A stretch of DNA of 64,000 nucleotides from an uncultured Arenicella sp. (GTDB lineage Bacteria; Pseudomonadota; Gammaproteobacteria; Arenicellales; Arenicellaceae): the NCBI GenBank assembly GCA_938048185.1, contig CALIVT010000006.1:1-64000 (forward strand). The letters are read 5' to 3'. The position numbers and the translations under genes are program-made. Under the pieces are notes generated by a model that saw only the letters and a program-made list of their open reading frames with translations, did not search any database and was not told the DNA's origin. Every line of letters starts with the position of its first letter. Position 1 is the first letter of the stretch. This document shows, piece after piece, positions 57,821 to 61,980 of the stretch.

Positions 57821-58768
57821 TTACGCAGTGCGTTTATGTTGCCACCAAAACACCAAGCCTTGCGCGTTTAACTTCGCGTCTAGCCGCAGCCAATGGCGTG
57901 CGGTTGCGTCGTCAATTCCGTCAACCTCGTTTAAGCATCGTCGCACTAAATACTGAGTAAGTTCGTCTGTCAGGGTGCTTTCAAAGTGGTCGCCTTGATC
58001 GGCTGCTTGTTGCGTCAACATCACAAAATCGTCAATTTGCTCGTGTAAACCTGCGATGTTCTTTGCATTTGGGGTTACGGCGCTGTAGTGGGTTAAATAC
58101 AGTGTCTCGGGCGAATAGGCCATAACCTTATCAATCGACGCGTGCAGTGCCTGAGGGTTAAATTGAACGGGTGTGGTCGTCGGTGCTAAAAACGAGTGTT
58201 TGGAATTGCGCAACGCCCGATAACCAACGCCGAGGGTGTCGCCCGTGAATACGCTGTTGGTGGTTGAGTCAACAATACAATGGTGGTGGCTAGCATGGCC
58301 GGGCGTGTCGATAAAGGTAAGGGGCCTTCCAGCAAAGTCGATGGTATCGCCATCACCTGGTTCGAGCATTCGGTCTGAATCGATCGGTGTTATCTCGCCG
58401 TACAATCGAGTGAACTCTTGTTCGCCGTAAACCGCACTTGCGCCAGCGATCAGCTTGCTGGGGTCTACCATGTGTCTGGCACCTTTGGGGTGCACGACAA
58501 AGCGGGCGTTTTTGCACAACTGCATTAATGCGCTGGCACCCCCTGCGTGGTCAAGGTGTATATGGGTAACGATAATCAGGTCGACATGGTCGTAGCTCAA
58601 GCCAAGCTCGAGCAGCGTGGCCGACACTTGTGGGACTGAGTATTGGGTGCCGGTGTCAACTATCGCGATCCGGTCGTTTGAACGAATTAAATGAATTGAG
58701 GCCAGCTCAGGCTCATAGTAAAGCGCGTCAACCGTGTAGATGTCGCTATTTGGCAGGGTTTGCAGCAT
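57821..58768 (-). CDS. MBL-fold metallohydrolase
   Basis: A 315-residue metallo-beta-lactamase-fold hydrolase. The metal motif HIHLDHAGG (HxHxDH) is near residue 65, a second His in DTPGHASHHH follows, then Asp in FTGDTLG and a final His in LTHYS. The pattern resembles glyoxalase-II-like and thioester or phosphodiester hydrolases. It is divergent from the first bufferin precursor gene (126 bp apart); I see no firm functional link. Confidence 0.88.
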   Translation of the reverse strand: MLQTLPNSDIYTVDALYYEPELASIHLIRSNDRIAIVDTGTQYSVPQVSATLLELGLSYDHVDLIIVTHIHLDHAGGASALMQLCKNARFVVHPKGARHMVDPSKLIAGASAVYGEQEFTRLYGEITPIDSDRMLEPGDGDTIDFAGRPLTFIDTPGHASHHHCIVDSTTNSVFTGDTLGVGYRALRNSKHSFLAPTTTPVQFNPQALHASIDKVMAYSPETLYLTHYSAVTPNAKNIAGLHEQIDDFVMLTQQAADQGDHFESTLTDELTQYLVRRCLNEVDGIDDATARHWLRLDAKLNAQGLVFWWQHKRTA

Positions 58769-58894: not shown

Positions 58895-59296
58895 ATGAAA
58901 AACGAAAAACTGATAAATAAATCTCAAAAATCTATTGGCGCTGCATTGGCAACGTCTGTACTTGCTACCGCGCTGATGACTGCTTCGTCGGTTGCGTCGG
59001 CTGCTTCAACAGAACGTTGTGGTGATGTCGTTAAAGGTGGAAAAAACACATGTGCGGTGACTTCTCTTGGTATTTCTTGCCAGGGTAACGCGAGCGAAGA
59101 CAACATGCCAGGTGCTTGGATTAAAGTACCAAAAGGCACGTGTGGAAACATTGTTAGCATTTGCGCTGGCACTGCCGAAGCGCCCGAAGGCACTAAAGAG
59201 AAAAGGTTGGCGAAAGCGTGCGCCAAAATCGCTGATCAAACCGACGAGACGGTTGTTGGTGGTCGCTTGGTTGATAAGTACGGCGAATCTATCTAG
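58895..59296 (+). CDS. Divergent DUF2282-like (bufferin-type) precursor peptide
   Basis: A 133-residue exported Cys-rich protein with a signal peptide to about residue 37. The core has Cys42, Cys53, Cys62 and Cys83; spacing 11-9-21 compares with 11-7-21 in the canonical precursor next door, with shared blocks [16 protein letters not shown]. Two extra cysteines (Cys90, Cys109) and a longer C-terminal tail are not in the neighbour. It is probably a duplicated bufferin-type precursor processed by the same MNIO enzyme. The start follows GAAGGTAAAG; its own terminator lies downstream. Confidence 0.75.
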
Positions 59297-59314
59297 ACAA
59301 TTTATTGTATAAAG

Positions 59315-59358
59315 GCTCGGATTTTTGGGGTTGGTTCTCCGGTAGTCCGAGCTTTTTT
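59315..59358 (+). terminator. Terminator between the two precursor genes
   Basis: The stem GCTCGGA (59315-59321) pairs with TCCGAGC (59346-59352), extended by weaker pairs, and six T residues follow. It should end most transcripts from the first precursor gene, separating it from the bufA1-bufBC unit. Confidence 0.9.
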
Positions 59359-59359
59359 G

Positions 59360-59388
59360 ATGTGTTGTAAATATTATTTGCAACACAT
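59360..59388. promoter_or_regulatory. 29-bp dyad, candidate operator of the bufferin operon
   Basis: Arms ATGTGTTGTAAAT and ATTTGCAACACAT are reverse complements except for one position, separated by ATT. The right arm contains TTGCAA (59378-59383), a possible -35 box with CTATAA about 20 bp downstream, so a bound repressor would cover the promoter. It does not match Fur, Zur, CueR or CsoR boxes as I know them. The regulator is unknown. Confidence 0.7.
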
Positions 59389-59432: not shown

Positions 59433-59726
59433 ATGAAGCCAATTAAAACATCTGCCGCCGCAACCGCTATTTTAGCCGTCGCTTTAATGTCTAACTCAGC
59501 CATGTCTCATGCGGGTAAAGAGGGCTATGAAAAATGCCAAGGTGTCGCTAAAGCAGGTATGAATGACTGCGGTGCTAATGGCCACAGTTGTGCCGGCAAA
59601 GCCGAAGTTGATGGTGATAAAAACGAATGGGTTTATTTGCCTGAAGGAACCTGCGAAAAAATCGTTGGTGGTGTTGTAAAAGCGCCAAAAGAGAAAATGG
59701 AAAAAGAGATGAAGGCTGAGTCATAA
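59433..59726 (+). CDS. bufA1: Bufferin-type precursor peptide (DUF2282, BufA1-like)
   Basis: A 97-residue DUF2282 protein with a signal peptide to about residue 27. The four-Cys core is Cys35, Cys46, Cys53 and Cys74 with the family blocks EKCQGVAKAGMNDC, HSCAGKA and WVYLPEGTCEKI. In described bufferins, the two middle cysteines are converted by an MNIO enzyme to thiooxazole-type groups and the product binds copper in the periplasm. A ribosome site (AAAGGA) lies 8-13 nt before the ATG. The fused modifying enzyme follows after 25 bp. Confidence 0.88.
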   Translation: MKPIKTSAAATAILAVALMSNSAMSHAGKEGYEKCQGVAKAGMNDCGANGHSCAGKAEVDGDKNEWVYLPEGTCEKIVGGVVKAPKEKMEKEMKAES

Positions 59727-59751: not shown

Positions 59752-61365
59752 ATGATGAAATCGGGCCTTGGAATTCGGCCAGAATTATTTGGCCCGATTG
59801 AACGCATCACCCCCGAGTTAGGCTTTTTCGAAGCCCACTCCGAAAATTATTTTGGTGAGTCAATCGCGCGCGCGAAGTTGTTGGCGCTGCGTGAAGACTA
59901 TCCAATAAGCTTGCACGGTGTTGGGTTATCACTCGGACGCGCTGATAATTTAAATCAGCAGCACCTTGCTGATCTTAAGAAATTGGTCGATGAAGTCGAC
60001 CCCATGATTGTCTCTGAGCACTTAGCTTGGAGCGCCTATTCGCACACCCACCTTCCTGATTTATTGCCCTTGCCGTTAACTGGCCAGGCGCTGGATATTA
60101 TTTGCCAGCACGTTGATGAAATGCAGACCATGTTAGGGCGGCAGGTGCTGATAGAGAACCCCTCGAACTATCTGTTGTTCGAACAATTACAAATCCCTGA
60201 ACCTGAATTTTTAAACGCTCTCGCGCAGCGCACAGGCTGTGGTTTACTTTTGGATGTAAATAACGTCCACGTCAGCGCGATGAATATAAATCGTGATGGT
60301 CGCGCCTACATTGACGCTATTAATACGAGTGCAATCGGCCAATACCACTTAGCCGGTTATACCGAGGTTGATCGTGAGCACAATGGCGTTAGCGAACGCG
60401 TGCTGATTGATACGCATAACCAAACCGTATACGAGCCCGTATGGCAATTATTTGAACACACTTTGGGTCGCCATGGTGCACGCCCAACCTTATTTGAATG
60501 GGATTCTGATTTTCCCGAACTTGAGGTGTTAGTAGCCGAATGTGAGAAGGCTGATGAGCTCCTTGAGCGCTTTCCTGACGCGGTTAAGAAAGGCGATTCG
60601 TCGATTGCAAGCACAGTCGATTGGCCTCAGGCTTTGGAAATCTCACAAGAGCAATTTTTGGACAGCGTGATCTCGCTCTCATCGCAGCTGGACACTGCGC
60701 GCGCTGAACATAAGCACCGCGTTTGGATTTATCAGAACAATATATTTGGCGCGGTACAAGACTATATGTCTGAAGTTTACCCTGCCAGCAAAGGCGTCGT
60801 TGGCGAAGATTTTTTTAAGCAAATGGTGCACGTATTTTTGCAAAAAAGTGCCCCCGAGCACGGCAATATACATCTGTATGGTGATCGTTTTGTGCACTTA
60901 TGCGAGACCCTTGAAGGCCTTGATGGTTTGCCATATTTGGCTGATTTGATGACCTATGAGTGGGCCTTGCACTCGTCTTATTTCGCCAAGGCATCGGACG
61001 TGCTCGACCCCGCTAGCTTTCCGCAAGAAGACCTATTAAGTGCTGATGTTGGTTTTAACGACAGCGTTCACTTGGTGTCGTCCGAGTTTCCTGTGTTTGA
61101 AATTCAGCGGCAATCGGTGCCCACATACCAAGGCGAAGTGGCAATTGATTTGGGGCAGAGCCAAGACAATATTTTGGTTTTCAAACGAAACCACCTGGTC
61201 GTAAACGAAGTGGTTGGGGCTTCGCAAATGGAATTTTTAAAGGAAATAGGAAAAAAAGGAAACTTATTGCAAGCAATTGAGCAGGTGCAAGGGTCTATAT
61301 CAGCAGACACATTATCTGCAACTCTGTCGTTGGTATTTGAGGCACGGCTTCTAAAGTTGGTTTAA
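59752..61365 (+). CDS. bufBC: Fused MNIO (DUF692) oxidase and DUF2063 partner, BufB-BufC
   Basis: A 537-residue fusion. Residues 1-280 are a DUF692 TIM barrel of the multinuclear non-heme iron oxidase (MNIO) family, with candidate metal ligands His55, Glu89/His90, Glu135, Asp169, His173, His199, Asp220, His222, Glu249 and Asp251 (blocks SEHLAW, ENPSNYL, LLDVNNVHV, LFEWDSD). Residues about 290-537 are a DUF2063 (BufC/MbnC-like) domain with RVWIYQNNIFGAV and YGDRF, then PYLADLMTYEW. In known bufferin and methanobactin loci these are two proteins that form a complex; here they are one chain. It should oxidise core cysteines of the upstream precursors. Confidence 0.9.
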   Translation: MMKSGLGIRPELFGPIERITPELGFFEAHSENYFGESIARAKLLALREDYPISLHGVGLSLGRADNLNQQHLADLKKLVDEVDPMIVSEHLAWSAYSHTHLPDLLPLPLTGQALDIICQHVDEMQTMLGRQVLIENPSNYLLFEQLQIPEPEFLNALAQRTGCGLLLDVNNVHVSAMNINRDGRAYIDAINTSAIGQYHLAGYTEVDREHNGVSERVLIDTHNQTVYEPVWQLFEHTLGRHGARPTLFEWDSDFPELEVLVAECEKADELLERFPDAVKKGDSSIASTVDWPQALEISQEQFLDSVISLSSQLDTARAEHKHRVWIYQNNIFGAVQDYMSEVYPASKGVVGEDFFKQMVHVFLQKSAPEHGNIHLYGDRFVHLCETLEGLDGLPYLADLMTYEWALHSSYFAKASDVLDPASFPQEDLLSADVGFNDSVHLVSSEFPVFEIQRQSVPTYQGEVAIDLGQSQDNILVFKRNHLVVNEVVGASQMEFLKEIGKKGNLLQAIEQVQGSISADTLSATLSLVFEARLLKLV

Positions 61366-61462: not shown

Positions 61463-61891
61463 ATGAAAAAATTGTATTTAGCATTTGGGTCGTTTTGCGA
61501 CGCGATTGTATCGCCACTGGCAAATTTGGCCGCACGAATTTACGTGGGTCTTATCTTCTGGAAATCAGGAGTGCTCAAGTTCGAAGATATGGAGTCGACT
61601 ATCGAGATGTTCGACCCCGCTGAAGACGGCGAGTTTGTGTTGCCTTTTTTGCCTCCTGAGCCCGCAGCATATCTTGCGACTTATGGAGAGCTAGTTCTGC
61701 CTATCATGTTGTTTTTAGGCCTATTCACTAGAGTTGGCGCTCTGGGCTTATTGATCATGACCGCCGTAATCCAAATTTTTGTGTTGCCCGATCACCAGCA
61801 TTATCTATGGATGATTATTCTAGCAATGCTACTCGGCCAAGGTGGGGGCAAACTCTCCATCGATTATTGGCTATTCAAAGACACCAAGTAG
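61463..61891 (+). CDS. bufD1: DoxX family membrane protein (BufD-like)
   Basis: A 142-residue DoxX protein with four predicted helices, starting at the ATG at 61463 (an upstream TTG at 61385 would add a poorly hydrophobic extension). Blocks LAARIYVGLIFWKSGVLKFED and GLFTRVGALGLLIMTAVIQ are family hallmarks. DoxX genes close several bufferin operons; the role may be electron transfer or export-linked but is unproven. A strong terminator follows. Confidence 0.88.
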   Translation: MKKLYLAFGSFCDAIVSPLANLAARIYVGLIFWKSGVLKFEDMESTIEMFDPAEDGEFVLPFLPPEPAAYLATYGELVLPIMLFLGLFTRVGALGLLIMTAVIQIFVLPDHQHYLWMIILAMLLGQGGGKLSIDYWLFKDTK

Positions 61892-61947: not shown

Positions 61948-61980
61948 GCCGCTGGTTCCAAAAGAACCAGCGGCTTTTTT
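61948..61980 (+). terminator. Terminator of the bufferin operon
   Basis: A perfect 11-bp stem, GCCGCTGGTTC (61948-61958) with GAACCAGCGGC (61964-61974), loop CAAAA, then six T residues. It ends the bufA1-bufBC-doxX unit. Confidence 0.96.

Follow-up and report, generated by a model that had tools for sequence, protein, structure and literature searches.

The window, that is, the whole 64,000-nucleotide stretch of DNA that was analysed, belongs to an uncultured species of Arenicella and carries on its forward strand a gene cassette with the following features (the + sign denotes the forward strand; domains are listed by position within the fused gene).

58895..59296, +: precursor 1, a bufferin-type DUF2282 protein of 133 aa with 6 Cys and a conserved C-terminal tail (PF10048, E 1e-11)
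59311..59356, +: hairpin with a T-run between the two precursors, a possible partial terminator (folding energy)
59433..59726, +: precursor 2, a DUF2282 (Buf1-type) bufferin precursor of 97 aa with 4 Cys (PF10048, E 1.5e-22)
59752..61365, +: single-chain MNIO-DUF2063-RRE maturase (BufB-BufC fusion) of 537 aa (frame, profile matches, conservation)
59761..60564, +: MNIO (BufB) domain, residues 4-271, a TIM-barrel with nine mapped iron-ligand positions (PF05114 and MNIO_BufB)
60565..60633, +: linker, residues 272-294, poorly conserved and with low pLDDT (model and genus alignment)
60646..60897, +: DUF2063 domain, residues 299-382 (PF09836, the sole DUF2063 match in the assembly)
61030..61362, +: RRE-like domain, residues about 427-537 (fold match of the C-half model)
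61463..61891, +: DoxX/HvfX-like membrane protein, likely the last gene of the cassette (PF07681, E 7.3e-20)
61948..61974, +: terminator-like hairpin (11 pairs) with a T-run after DoxX, likely the end of the cassette (simple terminator scan)

In the host assembly (3.12 Mb in 42 contigs, 98.2% complete), the searches identified one PF05114 and one PF09836 domain, both within the fused gene, and two PF10048 (DUF2282) genes, both directly upstream of it; no second MNIO or DUF2063 domain was found. Precursor 2 ends 25 nt before the fused gene and scores 23 bits against the NCBIfam BufA2 model, under the cut-off of 60, and the DoxX-like protein scores 68 bits against HvfX, under the cut-off of 80. 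Precursor 1 has no NCBIfam match; its signal peptide, judged by eye, is Sec-like, so that a DUF2282 precursor (by PF10048) with a Sec signal lies beside the MNIO gene, as in a bufferin cluster. Precursor 1, the fused gene and doxX occur together in all 11 related loci detected in GTDB genomes, and precursor 2 is located immediately upstream of the fused gene in 7 of these (the exceptions being L041, L043, L044 and L046). In some Arenicella genomes (G001, G009 and G012), a further DUF2282 match lies on a different contig. A gene for a metallo-beta-lactamase-fold hydrolase (57821-58768, reverse strand) lies divergently upstream of the cassette, and does so in 11 of 11 related loci.

The region between the two precursors (59297-59370, 74 nt) folds at -30.5 kcal/mol (z -7.2), and hairpins associated with a T-run follow precursor 1 in 9 of the 11 related loci, with energies that, measured against mononucleotide shuffles, lean low because the best window was chosen; in the other two, L044 and L045, there is no run of four T within 110 nt after precursor 1. 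The simple terminator scan, which reported 11 terminator-like sites compared to a shuffle mean of 3.9, lists the hairpin after DoxX but omits the one at 59311-59356. Sigma-70-like promoter sites numbered 3, fewer than the shuffle mean of 4.6.

The sequence-only reading had placed an MNIO oxidase and its DUF2063 partner in one 537-residue frame free of stops, and both profiles indeed match a single chain. Open-frame reading of 59752-61365 (forward strand) gives 537 uninterrupted codons, with candidate ATG starts at 59752 and 59755, and the frame continues open in the upstream direction, reaching a total of 550 codons. In hmmscan, PF05114 matches residues 4-271 of this protein (E 2.3e-92, 309.4 bits against a cut-off of 25) and PF09836 matches residues 299-382 of the same chain (E 5.2e-15, 55.9 bits against a cut-off of 27.2). 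The N-terminal half scores as an NCBIfam MNIO_BufB equivalog above the cut-off (330.3 bits against 310), and HvfC matches residues 317-460 under its cut-off (45.4 bits against 142). The linker anticipated at about residues 280-300 is present but sits slightly earlier, at about 272-294.

The metal site was also taken to be intact in that reading, which the alignments bear out. The iron ligands of VcMbnB are His55, His91, Glu135, Asp165, Asn168, His194, Asp209 and Glu238, with His211 named as a ligand of the third iron, and those of TglH are likewise listed (PMC8888699, PMC10880893, both as far as their available text goes). In a HMMER alignment to 7dz9, inspected by eye, the VcMbnB/TglH ligands map to H55, H90, E135, D168, N171, H199 and D220 of the fused protein, and H222 is the counterpart of VcMbnB His211; E249 was placed via the 3bww alignment because the 7dz9 alignment ends before Glu238. 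All nine positions are invariant in a 12-row alignment of fused proteins, and likewise in an alignment of 9 rows with a second fused lineage among them.

The full-length model of the single chain has a pLDDT of 81.1 and a pTM of 0.73, and residues 277-288 are its sole segment with pLDDT below 50. Two halves unable to meet had been named as a possible refutation in the sequence-only reading; neither this model, disordered in the linker alone, nor the artificial HvfB-HvfC fusion, which is active even though it lacks a linker (PMC13419390), shows such a case. The fold of the N-terminal half matches TglH, MbnB and 3bww with Z of 23.8-25.7. A separate model of residues 290-537 (pLDDT 84.9, pTM 0.81) matches the DUF2063-RRE protein 3dee with Z 14.9 over 190 residues and TglI with Z 13.4-13.8 over 228-229 residues, values near 14 being, according to the note of the fold tool, not far above the chance reach of mostly helical models; nevertheless, the three 3dee and TglI chains stand well above the remaining fold matches (next Z 7.3), and the same three chains are the top three in Foldseek. 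The match to MbnC is weaker (Z 6.5-6.8). The RREs of SuiB, TbiB1 and TruD align to the last ~110 residues alone (about 427-537; Z 6-7), and this RRE-like C-terminal domain is a feature that was absent from the sequence-only reading. By sequence the case for the RRE is weaker, the NCBIfam HvfC match staying under its cut-off. A sequence search of the C-terminal half against the PDB gave no match up to E 10, whereas the fold search did. Given that the C-terminal half bears both the DUF2063 and the RRE-like domain, the whole known partner is present, and the fused gene encodes a complete MNIO oxidase and a complete BufC-type partner in one chain.

Conservation was assessed in 100 genomes including that of the window, namely 18 of the genus Arenicella, 3 others of the family and 79 of the order. 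A full-length fused frame without stops is present in 17 of the 18 Arenicella genomes and in none of the 3 other family genomes or the 79 genomes of the order; where both halves are matched in genomes of the family or order, the two matches lie apart from each other. In GTDB genomes, a scan yielded 11 fused loci, 11 of 11 near full length and without stops, in organisms that overlap with the 18-genome set. The remaining Arenicella genome (G014, 99% complete) has neither the fused enzyme nor a match to precursor 1, an apparent loss which implies that the system is dispensable. Across the 17 fused sequences, the mean fraction of the majority residue is 0.74 in the MNIO domain, 0.18 in the linker, 0.63 in DUF2063 and 0.58 in the RRE part, and the linker varies in length from 23 to 37 aa. 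The two closest pairs show purifying selection on both halves of the protein: the three domains have dN/dS values of about 0.05-0.11 (dS 0.66-1.9), and the linker has a value of about 0.23 in one pair and an undefined dS in the other. Six more distant pairs, mostly saturated at synonymous sites, were left out of this reading. Precursor 1 is near full length in 16 of the 18 genus genomes (that of the window included, the others matching at 65-86%) and in 16 of the 17 fused genomes, the fused genome G005 having a weaker, partial match. Among the 100 genomes searched, it is near full length only in this genus; elsewhere there are weak matches, which span the DUF2282 region together with some of the signal peptide. 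Precursor 1 is possibly an undescribed bufferin subtype.

Wider sampling indicates that such fusions are not common among the matches listed, in answer to the question of whether MNIO and DUF2063 often co-occur in single proteins. At least 222 of 369 gammaproteobacterial genomes have an MNIO match among the matches listed, and at least 6 of the 369 contain a fusion without a stop, four of these belonging to the genus Arenicella and the other two being G190 and G315; in an overlapping sample of 398 Pseudomonadota genomes, at least 145 have an MNIO match and, among the matches listed, only the genome of the window has the fusion. Both match lists end before the weakest matches, so distant fusions may have escaped them. 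The fusion in the window is not unique. The G190 fusion (L073:3220-4926, reverse strand, 568 aa, PF05114 and PF09836) comes from another gammaproteobacterial genus and is the only one among the 6 genomes of that genus; near it lie a small Buf2-like ORF with six Cys and, by eye, a gene for an ECF-type sigma factor. The G315 fusion (L072:2630-4393, forward strand, PF05114 and PF09836) is the only one among the 2 genomes of its genus, and the G315 genome also holds a separate MNIO/DUF2063 pair (L080). Within Arenicella, G005 has, in addition to its fused gene, another MNIO-DUF2063 pair, which is unfused, of a distant type and encoded by overlapping genes (L054:2221-3838).

Of five long frames inspected, that of G190 is a true fusion and those of G356, G311, G439 and G408 proved to be separate genes. 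Matches that were joined but interrupted by internal stops (for example in G735, G784, G542, G238, G172, G408, G418, G115 and G288) were left out of the fusion count, and in other long frames (for example of G476, G545, G796, G702, G739, G747 and G419) the matches end near model position 290, so that no C-terminal half is seen in the frame. No relative was found in viral contigs. On plasmids, all 30 matches listed in one set (with 320 further records) are in two pieces, 28 of them over two annotated genes and the rest without annotation; the same holds for all 20 matches listed in another set (335 further records), where 13 lie over two annotated genes and the rest are without annotation.

A tree was built from 62 of 69 MNIO-bearing frames, the dropped ones being duplicate loci and frames scoring below 150 or shorter than 200 residues; L037-L047, which come from the same genus, had been left out beforehand. 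The sequences of the genus Arenicella form one clade (100/100) and the two other fused sequences fall elsewhere, so that the fused label needs at least 3 changes on the tree. A single clade of all 19 fused rows is rejected (p-AU 2.6e-50), and so is a single fused clade without L072, which is a long branch (p-AU 7e-12). Because counts of changes are blind to fusion versus fission, three gains are the simplest reading rather than a proof: most simply, the genes fused once in the ancestor of the genus Arenicella and, independently, two or more times in other Gammaproteobacteria. In six unfused loci (L055-L058, L074 and L077), the MNIO frame is in the same phase as the DUF2063 frame and just one stop codon lies between them, which suggests an easy route to fusion.

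According to the available text of a 2026 preprint (PMC13419390), HvfB needs HvfC and is inactive without it, mixing of the two proteins gives no activity, and a direct genetic HvfBC fusion, B then C, reaches the mixed-valent diiron state and forms product markedly above the level of the co-expressed pair; the same source states that for some MNIO enzymes and their partners the association is weak or the single proteins are insoluble, an artificial fusion having been built to obtain the active iron state, and that thiooxazole formation is a four-electron oxidation. Thiooxazole chemistry is known from bufferins and their relatives, and thiooxazoles absorb near 305 nm (PMC13097082, available text). 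Given that the HvfBC fusion is active and that the window protein has the same order, the fused half can be expected to provide a permanent hold on both the precursor and the active iron state. The fused gene is very probably a natural single-chain bufferin maturase composed of a BufB-type MNIO, a flexible linker and a complete BufC-type partner, and the chain most likely acts as a self-sufficient maturase for the two upstream DUF2282 precursors. Points that speak against this reading are the scores of the HvfC, BufA2 and HvfX models under their cut-offs, the missing NCBIfam match for precursor 1, the 4 of 11 related loci in which precursor 2 does not lie immediately upstream, and the apparent loss of the system in G014.

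We infer the activity, product and copper role of the fused system along the following lines. The RRE/DUF2063 half would bind the precursor and pack on the barrel in the manner of a separate BufC on its BufB, and the packed half would hold the iron cluster in the active mixed-valent state. The barrel would then convert core cysteines of the precursors to 5-thiooxazoles in the cytoplasm, a modification with a mass shift of about -4 Da per Cys, after which the mature peptides would be exported by Sec and buffer copper. Under this scheme, fusion would swap a possibly weak association of two proteins for a permanent 1:1 pair, and a partial terminator between the precursors would yield precursor 1 in excess of the enzyme.

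Three other explanations of the observations have to be weighed against a natural single-chain maturase. The fragmentation of the host genome into 42 contigs and the origin of most related records from metagenome bins could make one suspect that an assembly or sequencing error joined two frames; however, the uninterrupted frame recurs, at 52-67% identity, in 16 of the other 17 Arenicella genomes, as well as near full length in 11 of 11 GTDB loci, and codon-level constraint runs on both sides of the linker, so that an error would need to have recurred independently. An artefact, which the sequence-only reading had named as a possible refutation, can therefore be dismissed for practical purposes. 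It is also conceivable that the gene is fused but the C-terminal half is additionally made from an internal start, or that the linker is cleaved, the enzyme still being a heterodimer. The variable, predicted disordered linker would tolerate cleavage, and every one of the 17 sequences has in-frame start codons within the linker or shortly past it: 3 have ATG, and 7 have TTG at a single conserved Leu position shortly past the linker, where TTG may recur as a Leu codon. Against this, none of the 17 sequences has a string of the AGGA/GGAG/GAGG type 5-16 nt before any linker-region start; the search covered strings of this type, so weak starts are possible, and it gave no sign of a separately made C-terminal half. 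We consider a persisting heterodimer quite improbable.

Somewhat less improbable, but still unlikely, is a changed task of the fused chain, that is, another chemistry or a substrate other than Buf1-type bufferins. This explanation would fit the presence of precursor 1, a longer DUF2282 protein that is specific to the genus, has six Cys and accompanies nearly all fused genes (16 of 17 genomes); yet the N-terminal half scores as a BufB equivalog above the cut-off, none of the mapped iron ligands has been lost, and precursor 2, which is of the ordinary Buf1 type, ends 25 nt upstream. The same precursor 1 leads to a tentative extension of the single-chain maturase reading, which we regard as a possibility with the odds somewhat against it: a genus-specific redesign of the bufferin system, in which the fused chain co-evolved with the six-Cys precursor 1 and one self-sufficient enzyme matures two different copper-buffering proteins that are produced at different levels. 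If such a redesign took place, the separate fusions elsewhere would mark selection against a weak two-protein association.

The 17 sequences of the genus, together with the two other fused lineages, are ready-made constructs for structure determination, spectroscopy and work on the linker, and a natural single chain makes it possible to ask whether the partner serves as a tether alone or tunes the iron cluster as well. Fused clusters may be missed when genomes are mined for MNIO genes with an adjacent partner gene.

The claim that no fusion of this kind has been described holds for natural fusions in the literature examined and has to be qualified with regard to engineered ones, given that HvfBC is in print. 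In the mostly open-access text covered, supplements aside, no natural MNIO-DUF2063 fusion was found, and InterPro may list the architecture; in their available text, the MNIO landscape paper PMC12452194 names no such fusion and PMC13097082, PMC12538549, PMC12710340 and PMC12141560 mention no natural one. The available literature on Arenicella and copper contained nothing on this system. With respect to BufB and BufC (PMC12452194, available text), the window cassette has the two proteins in the same order, DUF2282 precursors and DoxX, and differs in that BufB and BufC are encoded by separate genes, not as one chain. The PME-type 1 partner (BufC) is a separate protein of 250-260 residues, whereas the C-terminal half in the window is fused and comprises about 245 residues. 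The fused gene has the tested defining features of BufB and, separateness apart, those of BufC.

MNIO domains in larger natural chains have precedents. According to the available text of PMC13419390, MovX (with a fused RRE) and ChrH are named as exceptions; in MovX, as in the window protein, an MNIO is naturally joined to a peptide-recognition domain, but by its description this is a C-terminal RRE only, in contrast to the full DUF2063 and RRE partner in the window. The MNIO and nitroreductase fusions reported in PMC12452194 (available text), where precursor fusions are also named, likewise place an MNIO within a larger natural chain, but the second domain is another enzyme and not a partner domain. 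The MbnBC and TglHI holoenzymes (7DZ9, 7FC0, 7TCR and 8HI7), which differ from each other in assembly (PMC10880893, available text), have iron ligands in common with the window protein, the fold of MbnB/TglH being shared with its N-terminal half (Z about 24-26) and that of TglI with its C-terminal half (Z 13-14); unlike the window protein, they consist of two chains and have other substrates and products. In the engineered HvfBC (PMC13419390, available text), the C-terminus of the MNIO is joined to the N-terminus of a DUF2063-RRE partner, as in the window protein; that construct is artificial, has no linker and belongs to an oxazolin system, whereas the window protein is natural, has a linker of 23-37 aa in its genus and is encoded in a bufferin-type cluster.
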